A stretch of DNA of 64,000 bases. Origin: Meiothermus sp. (GTDB taxonomy: Bacteria > Deinococcota > Deinococci > Deinococcales > Thermaceae). Positions 31,171-39,897 of the stretch are shown here, one piece after another. The position numbers and the translations under genes are program-made. Every line of letters starts with the position of its first letter. The first letter of the stretch is position 1. Where the stretch lies: assembly GCF_026004115.1 (NCBI RefSeq), contig NZ_BPIM01000001.1, positions 1,612,001 through 1,676,000 of the forward strand. Reading direction: 5' to 3'. The notes under the pieces are model-generated. The model worked only from the letters and a program-made list of their open reading frames with translations. It was not told the origin of the DNA and made no database searches.

Positions 31171-32352
31171 TTATAACTCGTCTTCAAAGAGTGCTTCCCA
31201 GGTTTGCTGACGGCGGATGATTTCCCAGTTTTGACCGGTCCACAGCAGCTCGGCGGGGCGCGGGGTGTCGAGGTAGTTGCTGCTCATGCTGCTGGCGTAG
31301 GCCCCCCCTTGCAAAATGGCCAGCAAATCGCCCTCCTGGGGTTCGGGCAGGGTGATATCCCGCGCCAGCACATCCCCCGACTCGCAAGCCGGGCCTGCCA
31401 GGTCGTAGGTTTCTTGGAGGGGGTTTTTGTAGAGCGGTTCGACCGGGTGGATGGCGCCATAAAGCATGGGCCGGATCAACTGACCCATGCCCGCGTCAAT
31501 GAGCAGATAGTTGCGCCGGGTGCGCTTGACGCCCCAGCAGCGCGTGACCAGCACCCCAGCCTCGGCGACCAGGTAACGCCCCGGCTCGAGCCATAGCTCG
31601 GCGCTGTGCTTGCGGGCCAGTGCGATAGCCTGTGTTCCTACCTCGCCCAGGTCGAGGCCCAGGCCAAAACCACCCCCCAGGTTCATCACCTGAAAGGGGC
31701 CGTGGGTGCGGTAAAGCTCGTCCATCACCCGGTAGCCCGCCGAGTAGTCTTCGGGGTGCTCGAGGGCCGACCCCAGGTGAATGTGCAGGCCCAGCACTTC
31801 CAGGTGGCTGTGGCGGGCTTGCTCGAGGGCGGCCCCTACCTCTTCCGGCAGGATGCCAAACTTGCTCTCGCCGCGCCCGGTGGCCAGATGGTCGTGGGTG
31901 GCGATGGGCAGGTCGGGGTTGACCCGCAAGAGAACCTGGGCCTTGGGCAGTAGCTTGGCTACCCGATTGAGGTCGGCCAGGGAATCGAGGCCCAGAATCG
32001 GGATGCCCGCCAGGTTCAGTTCTTTGAGCATGGCCGGGGTCTTGACCGGCCCATTCAACAACACCTCATTGCGCCGGAAGCCGGCCTTGTACGCCCGGTA
32101 GACCTCGCCCAGGCTTACGGCCTCCACAAAAGCCCCCCGCTCCAGCAGCCGCCGTAGCAGGCCCAGGCGGGGGTTGGCCTTCATGGCATAGAAAATTTCA
32201 GCACCCGGAAAGGCTTTTTGCAGACGCTCCAGCCGCTCCAGAATGACCTGCAGGTCGTAGGCGTAAAAAGGGGTGGGGAAGAGGCGGGCCGCTTCCTTGA
32301 GGGCTTCTCTAAACTCAGGTCGCAGGGCGGTGTAGGATTGGGACATGCTCAT
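31171..32352 (-). CDS. lysA: Diaminopimelate decarboxylase
   Basis: Fold-type III PLP decarboxylase making L-lysine from meso-diaminopimelate. The PLP lysine is in FYAMKANP near residue 56. Other family segments are HIHLGSAL, NLGGGFGLG, ELWLEPGRYLVAEAG and the catalytic-Cys region GPACESGDVLA. The 393-residue length is normal. The ATG at 32352 has GAGGGG about 8 nt upstream; a second ATG is at 32346. The 5' end overlaps that of the divergent amidotransferase gene. Its presence points to the DAP route to lysine rather than the aminoadipate route known in Thermus. Confidence 0.94.
   Translation of the reverse strand: MSMSQSYTALRPEFREALKEAARLFPTPFYAYDLQVILERLERLQKAFPGAEIFYAMKANPRLGLLRRLLERGAFVEAVSLGEVYRAYKAGFRRNEVLLNGPVKTPAMLKELNLAGIPILGLDSLADLNRVAKLLPKAQVLLRVNPDLPIATHDHLATGRGESKFGILPEEVGAALEQARHSHLEVLGLHIHLGSALEHPEDYSAGYRVMDELYRTHGPFQVMNLGGGFGLGLDLGEVGTQAIALARKHSAELWLEPGRYLVAEAGVLVTRCWGVKRTRRNYLLIDAGMGQLIRPMLYGAIHPVEPLYKNPLQETYDLAGPACESGDVLARDITLPEPQEGDLLAILQGGAYASSMSSNYLDTPRPAELLWTGQNWEIIRRQQTWEALFEDEL
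32333..32338 (+). promoter_or_regulatory. -10 element of amidotransferase gene (leaderless, inside lysA)
   Basis: TAGGAT ends 6 nt before the ATG at 32345. It lies within the first codons of lysA on the other strand. Confidence 0.45.
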
Positions 32353-33073
32353 CGGTGTGACCCCTCAATCGCGCAGCACAGAAGGTCTTTTTCGAACCAG
32401 AATCTGGGGCCTGCTCGAGCCCTACGTACGGGCTCTGGAAAGCCAGGGTGCGAGCATTGTAATCCTTCCCCCCCAGGCCAGCGATAGGCTGCCTGCCCTG
32501 CTGCACCAACTCGATGGGGTCTTGCTGCCCGGTGGGGTAGATGTAGACCCCGCGCATTTTGGCGAAGAGCCCATCCCGGAGATGGGCGAGGTGAGCCTGG
32601 AGCGCGATGCCATAGAGCTGTTTGTGGCCCGCTACACCGCCCAGCATGGCATCCCCACCCTGGGGGTTTGCCGGGGGGTACAGGTGATGAACGTAGCCCT
32701 GGGGGGTAACCTCTACCAGGATCTGCCCGCCCAGGGTTTCCGTAGCGTGCAACACTACCAGAAAGCCGAGCCGCCGGTGCTGGGCCACAGCGTCGAACAG
32801 ACGGGCCAGAGCCCCCTGAACAAGCTATTTGAGCCCCGTTTTCGGGTGAACTCGTACCACCACCAGGCCCTCAAAGATCTGGCCCCAGGGCTATGTCCGG
32901 TCGCCACCGCGCCCGATGGCATTGTGGAAGCAGTAGCCCTGGAGGGCCACCCCTTCTACCTGGGGGTGCAGTGGCACCCCGAGCTGCTCCCACAGCAGTG
33001 GGGTATTTTCCGTGCGCTGGTGGAGGCTGCTGTCGAACAGCGCTCAAGGGGTACCAAGATGCCTGTGCCATGA
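32345..33073 (+). CDS. Class I glutamine amidotransferase (gamma-glutamyl-GABA hydrolase-like)
   Basis: 242-residue PuuD-like enzyme. The Rossmann-like strand starts at residue 2 (LIGVTPQ), so the start is right. The nucleophile Cys is in TLGVCRGVQ near residue 118, and the His-Glu pair in GVQWHPE near residue 207. LLPGGVDVDP is also typical. PuuD hydrolyses gamma-glutamyl-aminobutyrate in putrescine breakdown; relatives act on other gamma-glutamyl amides. Its start codon overlaps that of lysA head to head. Confidence 0.88.
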   Translation: MLIGVTPQSRSTEGLFRTRIWGLLEPYVRALESQGASIVILPPQASDRLPALLHQLDGVLLPGGVDVDPAHFGEEPIPEMGEVSLERDAIELFVARYTAQHGIPTLGVCRGVQVMNVALGGNLYQDLPAQGFRSVQHYQKAEPPVLGHSVEQTGQSPLNKLFEPRFRVNSYHHQALKDLAPGLCPVATAPDGIVEAVALEGHPFYLGVQWHPELLPQQWGIFRALVEAAVEQRSRGTKMPVP

Positions 33074-33389
33074 GCACCCCGGAGATCTGCAATGAAGCAA
33101 GGTTTACGGCTCAACCATGTTGACGGACTCTTACGATGGGCTACGGACTTTGGATCACGGAGTTCGTTCCTTGACCGACAGAGCGAAGATGTGTGCTCTA
33201 TCGTTTTTGCTCCTGTGAGAGCCACCCTCAGATTCGCTTGCGTGCTGGATGAGGTTACCTATGAAAATTGAAGGAGCCTTAACCCGGCTGTGAGGATTTC
33301 TTAATGTCGTTTTGAACCACCCTACTTTTTGGTGCGCTATACACTAGGTTCAGTGCGGGTATCCTATGGTTTTATCCGGAGGTCAGGGC
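33074..33389. other. Gene-free stretch before coiled-coil gene
   Basis: About 315 bp. It contains TTGACG/TTGACC hexamers (near 33119 and 33172), a weak hairpin AGAGC/GCTCT followed by TTTTT near 33205-33215, and TATACA (33338-33343). TATCCT at 33360-33365 touches the ATG at 33366 and is more likely a -10 for the TTG start at 33390. No gene is supported. Confidence 0.45.
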
Positions 33390-36107
33390 TTGTCGTTGTA
33401 TCAGACTCTTAGTAGATCGCTCGAGCCCATGCTTGGGGAGCGCACCCGGATGGTGTTGGAAGAGGGGGTGCGTCGGCTGGGCATCAGCCCGGACAAGCTC
33501 GATGCGTCCCAGGCCGAAGTCATTCTCAAACGCCTGGTCTACCGCGAGCTTCAGACCAAAATGAGCCCCAACGCAGCCCGCAGCCGCATCGAAGAGATGC
33601 TCAAGGAACTGGGTATTGGCGGAGTGAACGGCACTAAAGCGGGCACGGACAAGCTATCGGCCCATGCCAAAGGCGTACTGACCGACCTCGAGGCCGGCCT
33701 CAAGCGCTTCAGTCTGTACCTGGACTGGCCCGAGGTAGGACGCTTGCGCGGTCTGATTAATGTGATCAAACAAGACCCCGAGGCCTCGGCGGTGCGGGCC
33801 TTGCTGCGTGAAGGGCAGGAGGTGTTGGCAACACTCGAGGAAAAGCTCCAGTCGGCCCTGCTGCGCCAGACCCGTGACATCGCCGACCTCGAGATGGCCT
33901 TACAGCGGGTGCAGAGCGTGGGAGGCCCCAAGGTACGCCGTCTGGAAAACCTGATTCGCCAGATTCAGGAGGCCCACGCCCAGGAAACCCTGGCCTCCGC
34001 CGAAGTTGAACGGGCCCGGGCCCTGGCTGCAGATATGCGCAAGCTGGTCGAATCGTCGGTGGTACAAAACCCCACCAGCGAGACAGCCATTACCCTGGAC
34101 ACCATCGAAGATATTCCGGCCGTGGATCGACCCACCGAGCCCCAGGTGGTGCTCAAGGACCCCACCATCGAGGCACCCGCCCTGGTGGAGGGAGCGCCGG
34201 ATGGCTTCGACGATGAAGCCCTGGTGCTCGACCTCGACTTCGACGCCCTGACCGTCGAGCAGCAGTCACGCATCCGCGAGATTGACGTGGCCGAGGATAC
34301 CCGGCACCTGGAGGCTTTCAAGGAGCGCTACGCAGCGGTGCTGGGCATCCCCAAAATTGCCGGCGAACTGGCCACCCTGCAAGCTGAATTACAGGCCGGC
34401 AACCCCCTGGGAGAGCGCCTGGCGGCTTTTGGCGAACTACTCAAGGCCACCCATGCAGAGGCCCTGGCCGAAGCGCGGGTGCGCTACGAATGGCTGGCCG
34501 ACCGGCTGGGCCGCCTCGAGCTGCCCCCCGAAAAAACCGTTCCGGTGCAAGCCCGGCTGGCGGTGGTGCTGGAAACCTTGCACGCCGGTGGGATACCGCA
34601 GGAACTACCGGAGCTGGAGCGGGCCATGGCCGGCCTCGAGGCCGAAGAAAAAGCCAGCCGCGAGGTTCGCGAGCGCCAGGCCCGTCTCGAGCATGCCCTG
34701 GCCGCCCTGCGCACCGAGGCCGAACACGCCCTCTCGCCCTTCCGGGGGCACCCGAGGGTGGAGTCCTTCATGACGGCCCTGGCTGGTTTGGATATCTCCG
34801 AGTCCTCGCTCCAGACCTTGCGCCAGGAACTCTCCGAACTGCTGTCCCAACTGGCCCGCGAGCGCGAAGAGGAAAGCCTCAAGCGCATGGGACTAAGGGC
34901 TACCGTGCAGGCCCTGCCCACCCTCGAGATCCTCGATCTGGATAAGCGGCGCCTCATCCAGCAGATTGATCAGGGTGCCGGGAGCCTGGGCGAACTCGAG
35001 CGGGCCGTGGGGCAACTGGTGGACAAAGCCAGGGGGCTGGTGGCGAGCAAGCTGGATGCTCTTGAGGTGCGCATTCGCAACCTCGAGCAGACCCTCAAGG
35101 AGTCCCTGATCGAGCTCAAGCAGCCCTTGCAGGCCACCCGCGAGGCCCTCGCCCAGGGCCGCATCGCCGACCCCACCCCCCTGGAGCGGGCCCTGGGTGA
35201 GCTGATTGCCGCCCGCCGGGCCGCGATGGCCGAGGAGCTCTCGCGCTACGAGATGGCGGCCCGCAGCATGAAGGGTCTGGGGGGTGAAGAACTCGAGGAC
35301 AAGGTGGCCCAGGCCCGGGCCTACCTCCAGGCCGGCGAACTGCCCGATCTGAGCGAAATTCACGCTTTGCTGGGCCGCCTGCGCCGCGCCCAGGAAACCC
35401 TGCGGGCCGAGTTAGGAGGGCGCATAGATGCGCTTTTGGAGGCCTACAACACCCACAAAAGCGTGGGCGGCGAAACTGCCCTTCGCCTCAAGCCGTTGTG
35501 CGATTTCTTACACTCGGCTGCTGAGCGGCTGCCCCGCCTGGGGGTGAGCGGCCTGCTCGAGGTGCGCCGGGCCCTGGAAGAGGCCGAACGCCTAGTGGCC
35601 CAACTCGCACAGGAACACGCAGCAGCCCAAAGCGTACTTCAGGAGCTCAAAGGAGCCGACCTCGAGTCCTTGCTGGATGTGTTCGAGTCCCCCACCCCAC
35701 TGAGCACCCCGCCAAAGCCCGAACCCCCCAAACCTGCTCCAACCGAAGCCACCCCATCACCCCAACCACAGGCTTCTGTTTCTGTCCCATCTACCCAGGC
35801 CGAAGCGCTGGCCCAGTTTCAGATCCGGGGTGTGGAGGCCATCGCCCTCATCGAGGCGGGCCAGGTGGTGGCCGGAAGCCTGCCTTTTGCTTCCAGCAGC
35901 GCCCAGATGGTCTTCGACGATCTCTTAAACCTGGCCAACGAGCTGGCTGGGCAGTCTGCTCAGCTCTCGGTCATTTCTCTGCCCCAGTGGGTGCTGGTGC
36001 TGGTGCCCTTGAAGCAAAAAGGGCTGGTGATCCTGGCCGAAAAAGCCCTGCTCTCACGTTTGCTGGCCCTCATCGAGCGCCAGCGCGACGCACTCGAAGC
36101 GCTATAA
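33390..36107 (+). CDS. Large coiled-coil protein with roadblock-like C-terminus
   Basis: About 905 residues, function not recognised. The N-terminal 70 residues form a compact helical domain (LSRSLEPMLGERTRMVLEEG). The middle (about 90-770) is Glu/Leu/Ala/Arg-rich heptad-like coiled coil, broken by an acidic patch around residue 270. A Pro-rich linker (PKPEPPKPAPTEATPSPQPQ) leads to a final ~100 residues, starting GVEAIALIEAGQVVAGS, that resemble a roadblock/LC7 fold. ATG 33366 is possible, but a GGAGG 7 nt before TTG 33390 fits better. Cytoskeletal, polarity or adaptor roles are conceivable; none is shown. Confidence 0.75.
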   Translation: MSLYQTLSRSLEPMLGERTRMVLEEGVRRLGISPDKLDASQAEVILKRLVYRELQTKMSPNAARSRIEEMLKELGIGGVNGTKAGTDKLSAHAKGVLTDLEAGLKRFSLYLDWPEVGRLRGLINVIKQDPEASAVRALLREGQEVLATLEEKLQSALLRQTRDIADLEMALQRVQSVGGPKVRRLENLIRQIQEAHAQETLASAEVERARALAADMRKLVESSVVQNPTSETAITLDTIEDIPAVDRPTEPQVVLKDPTIEAPALVEGAPDGFDDEALVLDLDFDALTVEQQSRIREIDVAEDTRHLEAFKERYAAVLGIPKIAGELATLQAELQAGNPLGERLAAFGELLKATHAEALAEARVRYEWLADRLGRLELPPEKTVPVQARLAVVLETLHAGGIPQELPELERAMAGLEAEEKASREVRERQARLEHALAALRTEAEHALSPFRGHPRVESFMTALAGLDISESSLQTLRQELSELLSQLAREREEESLKRMGLRATVQALPTLEILDLDKRRLIQQIDQGAGSLGELERAVGQLVDKARGLVASKLDALEVRIRNLEQTLKESLIELKQPLQATREALAQGRIADPTPLERALGELIAARRAAMAEELSRYEMAARSMKGLGGEELEDKVAQARAYLQAGELPDLSEIHALLGRLRRAQETLRAELGGRIDALLEAYNTHKSVGGETALRLKPLCDFLHSAAERLPRLGVSGLLEVRRALEEAERLVAQLAQEHAAAQSVLQELKGADLESLLDVFESPTPLSTPPKPEPPKPAPTEATPSPQPQASVSVPSTQAEALAQFQIRGVEAIALIEAGQVVAGSLPFASSSAQMVFDDLLNLANELAGQSAQLSVISLPQWVLVLVPLKQKGLVILAEKALLSRLLALIERQRDALEAL

Positions 36108-36129: not shown

Positions 36130-38010
36130 TTATTCGCCGCTGCCGTGCACGTACTGAAGCTCGTACAGCTTGGCGTAGTAGCCGCCTTTTCGCAGCAGTT
36201 CGTCGTGGCTTCCTTCTTCCAGCAGCTTGCCCTTGCGGAAGACCAGAATCCGGTTCACATGGCGAATGGTCGAGAGGCGGTGGGCGATCACAATCGAGGT
36301 GCGCCCCTCCATCACCCGGTAGAGCGCTGCCTGAATCTTCTGCTCGGTCTCGGAGTCTACGTTGGCGGTGGCCTCGTCCAGAATCAGCAGAATATCGGGG
36401 TTGTGCAGGATGGCCCGAGCCAACGCCAGCAGTTGCTTTTGTCCGGTGGAAAGCCCACCCCCCCGCTCGTGCAGCACGGTCTGGTAGCCCTGGGGCAGTC
36501 GCACGATGAACTCATCGGCCCCAACAAAAGCGCACACCTCCTTAATACGCTCGAGTGTAATACGGTCGTCTCCCAACCTCAGGTTGGACTCAATCGTACC
36601 GCTAAACAAGAAAGGGTCTTGCAGCACAATACCAATCGCGCGGCGCAGGTCGCGTTGGGCATACTCGCGCACATCTACCCCGTCAATCTTCACGGCTCCC
36701 TGCTGCACATCGTAGAAGCGAGCAATCAGGCTAATCACGCTGGTCTTGCCCGCGCCGGTAGCCCCCACCAGGGCAATCTTCTCGCCAGGCCGCACCTGGA
36801 AGCTTACCCCCCGCAGCACCCAGTCCCAGTCGTCTTCGGGCGGAGGGTTAGAACCCCCTGTGCCCTCCGCTTTGGTCTCTTTATCTACCGTTCCGTCCGG
36901 TTTGGCCTCTCCGCGCTTGCCGTAGGCGAACCATACGTTTTCGAAGTCAATCTGGCCTCTAAAGCGCTCGACCTGCCTGGCGCTGGGCTTATCGGACACT
37001 TCTTCTTCGGTATCCAGGAGTCCAAAAATGCGTTCTGCTGAAGCCATGGCGGCCTGGAAGATGTTGAACTTGTCGGAGAGGTCTTGCAGGGGTTGGAAGA
37101 GCTGGCGCACGTAATCGGTGAATGCCACCAGCAGACCAAGGGTTATGGCCTGCTGCACCACCTGTCCGCCCCCGTACCACAGCACCAGGGCCACGGTGAT
37201 TTCCCCCATAAAGCCCACCAGCGGAAAAAACAGAGCGAACCACTTGATGATGTCCACCCACGCCCTGCGGAGGTCGCTCGAGAGCAGGTTGAACTGGGAC
37301 TCGTTTTTCGGTTCCCGCACAAAAAGCTGGGTGGTCTGAACCCCGGCCAGGTTTTCCTGCAGGGAGGCATTCACCTTGGCCAGCCGGAGCCGCATGGCCC
37401 GGTAAGCCTCGCGCATGCCGTTGCGGATCCAGGTGGTCACGGCCAGGAAAATGGGCATGATGGCAAAAGCCACCAGCGCCAGCCGCCAGTCCAGCACCAG
37501 CATGAAGGTCATCAGGCCCACAATCAGAGCGAAGTCGGCAATGAGCCCCACCAACCCGCCGGTAATGAACTGGTTGATAGCGTCCACATCGGAGGTAATG
37601 CGGGTCATCAGGCGGCCCACCGGGTTGCGGTCGTAGTAGCCCAGGTGCAGCCGCTGGAGCTTGGCGAAGATTTCCGAGCGCAGGTCGTAGAGGATGTGCT
37701 GCCCTACCCAGCTAATCAGGTAGGTCTGGGCATAGTTGGCGATGAAGTCCACCACCCGCACCGCCAGAAATAGCGAGCAAATAAGGAGCAGGGTTTCGTA
37801 GCGCTGGGCCAGGGGCAGTACCTCGCGCGGCACGATGGCGTTGTCTATGGCGTATTTGAGAAACAGCGGGGTAGAGGCTGCCGTAAGGGTGCTCACTACC
37901 AAGGCCAGCAAGGCCAGTCCCACTTGTTTCCAGTAGGGCCGCACGTAGACCAGAATGCGCCGGGCCAGTTTGGCGTCAAAACTCTTCTTGAAGGCTTCTT
38001 CTTCGTGCAT
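36130..38010 (-). CDS. Heterodimeric ABC exporter subunit with canonical catalytic Glu
   Basis: 626-residue half-transporter: six-helix domain (about 20-320) fused to an ATPase domain. Walker A is GATGAGKTS, Walker B LLILDEATANVD with the catalytic Glu. The signature is LSTGQ instead of LSGGQ. A hydrophilic insert of about 30 residues (near 375-405, rich in Lys, Glu, Gly and Pro) lies inside the start of the ATPase domain. A GGAG ribosome site precedes ATG 38010. With the next gene upstream it resembles Thermus TmrA/TmrB, a multidrug or lipid exporter. Confidence 0.92.
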   Translation of the reverse strand: MHEEEAFKKSFDAKLARRILVYVRPYWKQVGLALLALVVSTLTAASTPLFLKYAIDNAIVPREVLPLAQRYETLLLICSLFLAVRVVDFIANYAQTYLISWVGQHILYDLRSEIFAKLQRLHLGYYDRNPVGRLMTRITSDVDAINQFITGGLVGLIADFALIVGLMTFMLVLDWRLALVAFAIMPIFLAVTTWIRNGMREAYRAMRLRLAKVNASLQENLAGVQTTQLFVREPKNESQFNLLSSDLRRAWVDIIKWFALFFPLVGFMGEITVALVLWYGGGQVVQQAITLGLLVAFTDYVRQLFQPLQDLSDKFNIFQAAMASAERIFGLLDTEEEVSDKPSARQVERFRGQIDFENVWFAYGKRGEAKPDGTVDKETKAEGTGGSNPPPEDDWDWVLRGVSFQVRPGEKIALVGATGAGKTSVISLIARFYDVQQGAVKIDGVDVREYAQRDLRRAIGIVLQDPFLFSGTIESNLRLGDDRITLERIKEVCAFVGADEFIVRLPQGYQTVLHERGGGLSTGQKQLLALARAILHNPDILLILDEATANVDSETEQKIQAALYRVMEGRTSIVIAHRLSTIRHVNRILVFRKGKLLEEGSHDELLRKGGYYAKLYELQYVHGSGE

Positions 38011-38091
38011 AAGGCTCCGCGGCTGATGGCTAGTGGTTTATGGCGGGTGGCTTTATATCGCCTATGAGCTATCCGCTCTAGACTATGGGCG

Positions 38092-39897
38092 CTAATCCAC
38101 CTCCGCTTGCAGACGCTGAATGCGGTCGAGTTCGGCATAGATGCCCCCGGTGGTCAGCAGCATTTCATGGGTGCCCTCTTCAGCGATTTTGCCGTGATCC
38201 AGGACCACAATCCAGTCGGCGTACTGCAAGGTCGAGGTGCGGTGACCGATCAGGAGGGTGGTCTGCTGTCCCAGCATACTCTTGAGGCCGGATAGAATCC
38301 GCGACTCGGTTTCGGTATCCACCGCACTCATGGCATCGTCCAGAATCAGGATGGGTGGTCTGAGCGCCAGGGCCCGGGCCAGGGCCACCCGCTGACGCTG
38401 CCCGCCCGAAAGGGTCACGCCGCGCTCGCCCAGCGAGGTGTTGTAGCCTTTGGGAAAACCCACAATGTCCTCGTGCACCCCGGCCAGCTTGGCGGCCCAC
38501 TCGGCCCGCTGTAGGTCTACCTCCGGCAGCCCAAAGCAGATGTTCTCCAACAGGGTGTCGGAGAAGAGAAAGGGCTCCTGTGGCACCATCCCGATAGCCC
38601 GCCGCAAGGTAGCGAGGGGCAATTGTTTTACGTCATAGCCCCCTACCAGCACCCGGCCCTCGGTGGGATCCAGGAGGCGGGGAATCAGGCTCACCAAAAG
38701 GGTCTTGCCGCTGCCGGTGCGTCCGGTAATGCCCAGGGTGGTGCCCTCCGGGATGGTCAGGGTGATGCCATCCAGCACCTTGCGACCGCCGAGCTCGAGG
38801 CTCACCTCCTCGAACTTGACCTCCCCCCGCAAAAAGCCATCAGCCACCCCCTTTGCCCCGTTCGGGAGAAGGGAATTCGATGGGTCGGCAATTCGGGCCG
38901 GCTCGTGCCAGAACTCCTCGAGCCGCTTGTAGCTCGTCGAGCCCCGCTGGAAGATGGTCAGCGTCCAGCCGAGCCCTACAATCGGCCAGCCCAGCATCAT
39001 CAGGTAGGCGTTGAACTGCACAAACTGCCCCGCGGTCATCTCGCCCCGGATGACCATCCCACCGCCCATCCAAAGCACAATCAGAGCAGCAAAGCCCATC
39101 AGGAGGCCCATTAAGGCCCGTACCGGGCCGTCCACGCGCGTCAGGGCCAGGCTTTTGGCGATGTAGTCCTTGTTGAGGGCCTGGAACGACTTTAGCTCGC
39201 GCTCTTCCAGGGCAAAGCCCTTGACCACCCGGATGCCGGAAAAGTTCTCCTGGGCGCGGGTAGAGATTTTATCGAAGGACTCCTGACTCTCGCGGTAGCG
39301 CTGGTCAATCAGGCGTAGAACGTAGTACATGATGACAAAAATGACGGGGAAGATCAGAGAAAGCGCCAGGGCCAGCGGGACACTGACCAGATACATGGAG
39401 GCTATGGCAAACACCACAAACATCAGCAGGCGGCTGCCCATGTTGATGCCGCCCCCCAGCATCTCGCGCACTGCGCCTAGGTCGGTGGTGAACTTGTTCA
39501 TCAGATCGCCAATGCGGTTCTGGCTATAAAAATAGCTGTCCAGCGCTAGGGCTTTCTTGAACAAGCCCATGCGCAGGTCGTGTTCAATGTAGCGGCTGGC
39601 CACCACCAGAAGCTGCCGGTTGGCCCAGGAGAAAAAGGCCGAGGCCACGGCAGCACCAAAAATGGCCCAGACCCAGACCAGGTAAGCCTCTCCAGCGCGG
39701 ATGGCGTCAATGGCATGGCGCAGGAAATAAGGCGATAGGGAAGCCATGCCCACCGAGGCGATACCGGCCAGCATGCCCCAGAGGTACTGAGGGCCATAGC
39801 GCCGCAGGTAGGGCATCAATGCTTTGAGGGGGCCAAATACTGACTGGTCAGTTCTGGGGGATGGTTCGTCTTGCCGGGGCGACTGCATTTGTACCAC
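38092..39897 (-). CDS. Heterodimeric ABC exporter subunit with degenerate Walker B
   Basis: 601-residue half-transporter. Walker A GRTGSGKTL, signature LSGGQ, but Walker B reads LILDDAMSAVD, Asp instead of the catalytic Glu. This subunit's nucleotide site pairs with the non-canonical LSTGQ of the partner, giving one dead and one active site, as in TmrAB and TM287/288. It starts at GTG 39897 with GGGAGGA 6 nt upstream; ATG 39888 is less well placed. The two genes lie 81 bp apart and are likely co-transcribed. Confidence 0.92.
   Translation of the reverse strand: MVQMQSPRQDEPSPRTDQSVFGPLKALMPYLRRYGPQYLWGMLAGIASVGMASLSPYFLRHAIDAIRAGEAYLVWVWAIFGAAVASAFFSWANRQLLVVASRYIEHDLRMGLFKKALALDSYFYSQNRIGDLMNKFTTDLGAVREMLGGGINMGSRLLMFVVFAIASMYLVSVPLALALSLIFPVIFVIMYYVLRLIDQRYRESQESFDKISTRAQENFSGIRVVKGFALEERELKSFQALNKDYIAKSLALTRVDGPVRALMGLLMGFAALIVLWMGGGMVIRGEMTAGQFVQFNAYLMMLGWPIVGLGWTLTIFQRGSTSYKRLEEFWHEPARIADPSNSLLPNGAKGVADGFLRGEVKFEEVSLELGGRKVLDGITLTIPEGTTLGITGRTGSGKTLLVSLIPRLLDPTEGRVLVGGYDVKQLPLATLRRAIGMVPQEPFLFSDTLLENICFGLPEVDLQRAEWAAKLAGVHEDIVGFPKGYNTSLGERGVTLSGGQRQRVALARALALRPPILILDDAMSAVDTETESRILSGLKSMLGQQTTLLIGHRTSTLQYADWIVVLDHGKIAEEGTHEMLLTTGGIYAELDRIQRLQAEVD

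Follow-up and report, generated by a model that had tools for sequence, protein, structure and literature searches.

The window analysed here is a 64,000-nt stretch of a Meiothermus genome (C1:1612001–1676000 of 3.35 Mb). On its plus strand it carries a gene for a large protein, here called the long roadblock protein, with a genome position of C1:1645390. The open reading frame spans 33366..36107 from an ATG or 33390..36107 from a TTG, and 33366..36107 is the sole plus-strand frame of such size there. The TTG at 33390 is the better start, because GGAGGT and the TTG recur in almost every one of 12 further Meiothermus sequences, conservation does not extend to the ATG at 33366, and distant homologues have their first methionine at or next to the TTG-encoded residue (for example, MSLYQTL, MSRYAAL and MTNPIYQ). 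Residues are accordingly numbered 1–905 from the TTG. Most of the closer relatives within Meiothermus have kept the upstream stretch TTTTGAACCACCC...TATACACT, and a scan upstream of the gene for a sigma-70-like promoter returned none on the plus strand. The features of the gene are as follows.

33378..33383, plus strand: Shine–Dalgarno sequence GGAGGT, 6 nt 5' of the TTG; kept in nearly all of 13 Meiothermus sequences
33390..36107, plus strand: CDS for the long roadblock protein (905 aa), from the TTG start through the stop codon; open reading frame, conserved GGAGGT/TTG and homologues in 101 of 111 genomes
33390..33608, plus strand: N-terminal four-helix domain, residues 1–73, common to the short roadblock protein; model and profile–profile match (99%)
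33660..34055, plus strand: helical domain, residues 91–222, the best conserved part; model and invariant residues in 49 sequences
34062..34244, plus strand: acidic linker, residues 225–285, predicted disordered; pLDDT below 50 at 225–280, poorly conserved
34254..35675, plus strand: rod of helices, residues 289–762; model, with degenerate repeats of about 59–62 residues in its second half
35685..35789, plus strand: Pro-rich linker, residues 766–800, predicted disordered; pLDDT below 50, low-identity, gapped region
35790..36104, plus strand: predicted roadblock/LC7 domain, residues 801–905; model (pLDDT 90.9), Foldseek, PDB profile and hhalign

Homologues occur in five families and in 29 of the 31 genera, as a rule once per genome, which excludes chance as the source of the reading frame. 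The closest named relative, from Meiothermus hypogaeus, is 96% identical over the whole protein. Our sample comprises 111 genomes of the order, and class and phylum searches return the same 111; judging from the sizes of the families, Deinococcaceae seem to lie outside it, so nothing is claimed for Deinococcus. When public genomes were scanned with the single long sequence, matches were confined to Meiothermus, and plasmid records searched for relatives in other groups yielded none.

The initial annotation had described the gene as transcribed alone beside an exporter operon. Two genes for ABC exporter half-transporters (window 36130–39897, minus strand) are convergent with it, and this linkage is kept in Meiothermus but absent in Thermus. 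The description therefore fits Meiothermus only, and the exporters were dropped as functional partners. In the window at 31171–33073, a decarboxylase-like gene (minus strand) and a class I glutamine amidotransferase-like gene (plus strand) lie head to head and share a few bases.

Domain architecture of the long roadblock protein

The C-terminal 104 or so residues are predicted with high confidence to be a roadblock/LC7 domain. Modelled alone with 47 homologues, residues 801–905 reached a mean pLDDT of 90.9 with the order H-E-E-H-E-E-E-H, and the same elements recur at the C terminus of the full-length model. The best 50 Foldseek matches in the PDB were all roadblock proteins (E down to 1.6e-5), including p14/MP1 of Ragulator, Asgard roadblocks, MglB of Thermus thermophilus and Myxococcus xanthus, and dynein light chains. 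The three best PDB matches of the domain profile were likewise roadblock chains: 7f8m (E 8.4e-4), 3leq, which is CvnB5 (0.009), and 9hef (0.037). With hhalign, the domain matched an alignment built from MglB plus two other roadblock proteins of the same genome (97%). The Pfam family PF03259 (Robl_LC7) gave no match to the window protein alone, and 6 of 47 relatives matched it on their own (best E 1.8e-4). Structure prediction and profile search of the C terminus thus bear out the roadblock-like end proposed in the initial annotation; they did not yield a fold unrelated to roadblock domains.

The full-length model (49 homologues, mean pLDDT 79.4, pTM 0.58) also contains the helical N-terminal domain that had been anticipated. 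A short linker leads from this domain to the second helical domain, in which L109, W113, E115, R120, L153, L157, Q160, G178, R184 and E205 are invariant among 49 sequences. The repeats of the rod are reflected in profile self-comparison scores, which reach 24.7, compared with a maximum of 15.5 over 20 column shuffles. A coiled coil of about 700 residues had been proposed for this middle part. It is long and helical, but it is not one coiled coil: the model contains no long uninterrupted helix (at most 46 residues), and the chain is divided into the helical domain, two disordered linkers and the repeats.

A Foldseek search of the PDB with the full-length model again matched roadblock proteins only, and the remainder of the protein therefore has no counterpart in the PDB. 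Pfam and NCBIfam searches of the whole protein gave only compositional matches below the cut-off (MutS_III, FliD_C, XXXCH and Rkd3), and the whole-protein profile retrieved from the PDB only apolipoproteins, designed bundles and other helical chains, which we took as composition. The Rkd3 match lies on the N terminus (E 0.018, below the cut-off); an Rkd3/arcadin-3 identity for this domain is unsupported, and the N-terminal profile matches nothing in the PDB.

Partner genes and the membrane-protein tail

Outside Meiothermus and Thermus, the long gene is usually linked in one operon with genes for a short roadblock protein and a membrane protein with three transmembrane helices. The membrane protein gene lies directly upstream of the long gene on the same strand in 33 genomes, 25 of which have the order short–membrane–long. 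The initial annotation had missed these partners, which are encoded elsewhere in this Meiothermus genome: the short and membrane genes are adjacent on the minus strand (C1:1412090–1409574), unlinked to the long gene, with 6 bp from stop to start, and encode proteins of 211 aa (C1:1411479–1412090) and 626 aa, respectively. Thermus has the same split arrangement. Neighbours of the operon elsewhere include tsaE, tsaB, hrcA, moaE, mreB and others, with mreB nearby in one family; the three genes stay adjacent across families while these other neighbours vary.

The short protein consists of an N-terminal four-helix domain, a linker and a roadblock domain. Its N-terminal domain matches that of the long protein (hhalign 99%, E 5.5e-18), as does its C-terminal roadblock domain (profile–profile 96%), and its profile finds the roadblock chain 7f8m in the PDB (E 1.3e-4). 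The profile matches 100 of 111 genomes, part of these matches being the related N terminus of the long protein. A 791-aa protein in another genome (G001:C1:332149–334521; L182:1150–3522) has the same N-terminal domain, apparently without a roadblock end, and is apparently a third member of this domain family.

Other roadblock-like genes occur in the Meiothermus genome. One, at C1:1902641–1903594 (L061:4642–5595), encodes a response-regulator receiver domain, a Pro-rich linker and a weak roadblock-like domain, and is adjoined by a CheA-like hybrid kinase and another regulator. This response-regulator–roadblock protein (C1:1902725) was rejected as the short partner, as it has no N-terminal domain; the gene at C1:1411479–1412090 is the true partner. 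At C1:2184163–2185173 (L060:4164–5174), the minus strand carries, after ybaB and recR, tandem genes for two small roadblock proteins of 117 and 118 aa, together with one for a 97-aa protein; several related genomes have similar tandem pairs. Directly downstream of the membrane gene, on the minus strand, lie CRISPR-array-like repeats with a recurrent AGTCCCTTCGGGGCAAAGGTTTTACG-type unit (C1:1408977–1409402; L174:3978–4403), and Cas2-like and Cas6-like open reading frames are found near these repeats.

The membrane protein, found in 107 of 111 genomes, begins with a signal-like helix. A long extracytoplasmic part follows, helical and rich in low complexity, then three membrane helices and finally a tail of about 45 residues; if the N-terminal part is exported by the signal helix, this tail would lie in the cytoplasm. 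All 49 distinct intact C termini carry [EDN]W[DE][DE][ED] at the end, followed by no more than three further residues; IVEWDEEF is the commonest form. Three genomes of one genus (G104, G106 and G107) depart from this pattern. They have the order hrcA–moaE–membrane gene–tsaE–tsaB–mreB, and at exactly this locus relatives carry the short and long genes on either side of the membrane gene. In these three genomes the locus has lost both roadblock genes, which no profile detects; the membrane protein retains its three helices, and no tail is present in any frame before tsaE. A congener, G103, keeps the roadblock genes' locus together with the tail VDWDDDY. Because the tail disappears together with both roadblock genes, the simplest reading of these sequences is that it acts for the roadblock proteins or for some partner that disappeared alongside them. 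It could also bind something other than roadblock proteins or MglA.

The disappearance of the tail along with the roadblock genes, despite retention of the membrane helices, also bears on whether the long protein acts alone, in which case the operon found elsewhere would be a housekeeping neighbourhood and the losses described below would reflect genome reduction. Such a reading would suit the single-gene state of the long gene in Meiothermus and Thermus, the functionally unrelated neighbours tsaE, tsaB, hrcA and moaE, and the fairly small genomes of the losing lineages, most of 1.8–2.5 Mb (G100 has 3.2 Mb). We nevertheless consider it very improbable, given that the two roadblock proteins have two homologous domains in common and that the three genes remain together across families despite changing surroundings.

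Shared absence with MglA

A scaffold for polarity or GTPase signalling had been suggested for the long protein, and a linked small GTPase gene was looked for in other genomes. None lies beside the long gene in any genome seen, neither a small GTPase nor a kinase is common to the loci, and no small GTPase gene adjoins any member of the set. In the Meiothermus genome itself, mglA (C1:2769708–2770295) adjoins its own mglB (C1:2769215–2769706), apart from the long gene. The suggestion is nonetheless supported in its direction by the distribution of MglA across genomes, although the connection is unproven.

MglA is present in 99 of 111 genomes. Among the 85 near-complete genomes (completeness of 90% or more, contamination of 5% or less), five lack it (G100, G104, G105, G106 and G110), and all five are also without the long protein. 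The only other near-complete genome without the long protein is G088, an assembly of 660 contigs, one of which carries the beginning of the membrane gene. In an rpoB tree, G100 and G110 form a group separate from G104–G107, and the latter group adjoins G103, which keeps everything, so that the long protein and MglA were lost jointly on two independent occasions. These joint losses are suggestive of a tie between the long protein and MglA, but are not proof: there are only two, both in small-genome lineages of one family, and general gene loss could therefore explain them. Two further genomes, G108 and G109, which we take to be Truepera-like, keep the long protein, MglA and the tail. In these genomes (L058 and L065), the long protein is shorter (about 630–650 aa), the membrane protein is divergent with a WDEDF tail, and the short protein was not clearly found.

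MreB is kept in all 22 genomes tested, and PilB/PilT-type ATPases are kept in G104–G107 and absent from G100 and G110. The loss thus does not simply follow a loss of cell shape or of pili. These distributions weigh on two further explanations. In the first, the set is a membrane-anchored envelope scaffold serving peptidoglycan or the outer membrane, and its roadblock domains merely join two proteins, with no GTPase involved. The missing GTPase linkage fits such a scaffold and counts against a connection to MglA; the large periplasmic part of the membrane protein, the proximity of the operon to mreB in one family, and the modelled rod and linkers would fit it as well. Conversely, the absence shared with MglA in two lineages and the persistence of MreB where the roadblock proteins were lost argue against it, and the mreB neighbourhood, limited to that one family, also holds the housekeeping genes tsaE and tsaB. 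We regard an envelope scaffold as rather unlikely.

In the second, the set would directly regulate type IV pili, through assembly, polar placement or DNA uptake, with MglA involved indirectly. According to a passage in PMC12024867 that cites Salzer et al. 2015, Thermus MglA and MglB mutants are affected in pilus localisation, a precedent for the MglA reading below as well. G100 and G110, which have no pilus ATPases, also lack the set, an observation that speaks for pilus regulation and against a primary connection to MglA. G104–G107 keep their pilus ATPases yet have lost both roadblock proteins and MglA, and none of the loci links a pilus gene to the set. On balance, direct pilus regulation seems improbable to us.

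We favour the reading in which the set is probably a partner of MglA in polarity, with putative MglA binding. A membrane-anchored roadblock platform across the sampled Deinococcota, with a proposed contact to MglA in polarity, is in our view about evenly balanced between right and wrong. On such a platform, the roadblock domains of the long and short proteins would pair, as roadblock domains usually do, and their N-terminal domains would pair too. The acidic-aromatic (E/D)WDEEF tail would hold the complex at the inner membrane, and a roadblock face or the tail may engage the MglA GTPase, placing or restraining it, for example, at a pole or at type IV pili and similar envelope machines. The set may in this way help to tell the cell which end is which.

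Relation to known roadblock systems

Judged from its sequences, the set would be a variant of roadblock–GTPase systems with a putative GTPase contact and an unusually built long member. MglB, the GTPase-activating protein of MglA in Myxococcus xanthus and Thermus thermophilus, has the same roadblock/LC7 fold as the long protein (T. thermophilus MglB 1j3w, TM-score 0.81 over the query). However, it is a single domain of about 160 residues, with a short extension at the C terminus, encoded beside mglA, and a separate mglB is present in the Meiothermus genome. By contrast, the long protein has 905 residues, an additional N-terminal domain and a rod, ends in its roadblock domain and is unlinked to mglA.

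The conservons of Streptomyces and Mycobacterium (CvnB/CvnD) also combine a roadblock protein with other genes in an operon, and the C-terminal domain of the long protein has CvnB5 (3leq) as its second-best sequence match in the PDB. A conservon carries its own genes for a small GTPase and a histidine kinase (PMC4316618), whereas the Deinococcota operon has neither and instead contains two roadblock proteins, setting it apart from the Cvn/Mfp type.

In Myxococcus, RomR, RomX, RomY and SgmX are non-catalytic partners that place or regulate MglA. None of the four has been described as combining a roadblock domain with a membrane partner, and searches with the rod and the membrane protein gave no sequence match. 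The acidic C-terminal helices of MglB and RomR, Glu-rich in RomR, act on MglA through a distal pocket (PMC6785124), which is a precedent for the proposed contact. No paper describing the three-part set was found in the open-licence literature, and the combination of two roadblock proteins with a membrane protein is apparently undescribed. Its interest lies in being a conserved bacterial set of two roadblock proteins and a membrane anchor that bears evolutionary signs of a link to MglA.

The p14/MP1 pair of Ragulator/LAMTOR gives the best Foldseek matches of the long protein's C-terminal domain, and roadblock proteins elsewhere form heteromeric GTPase regulators (PMC9481161). Ragulator, with its p14/MP1 pair and the lysosomal anchor p18, would share with the Deinococcota set the outline of a roadblock pair on a membrane anchor. 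The anchor differs, having three transmembrane helices, a short acidic-aromatic tail and no sequence relation to p18, and there is no Rag GTPase. A bolder extension, which we advance tentatively and consider unlikely, would make the set a phylum-wide bacterial counterpart of Ragulator: a roadblock heterodimer with paired N termini, docked through the tail to a periplasm-spanning protein and recruiting MglA as a polarity or pilus landmark in Thermus and related bacteria. By what means Thermus pili come to be biased towards one pole is described as unclear in PMC12393216. Were the Ragulator-like reading true, the set would be the missing landmark for polarity and pilus placement in these bacteria.
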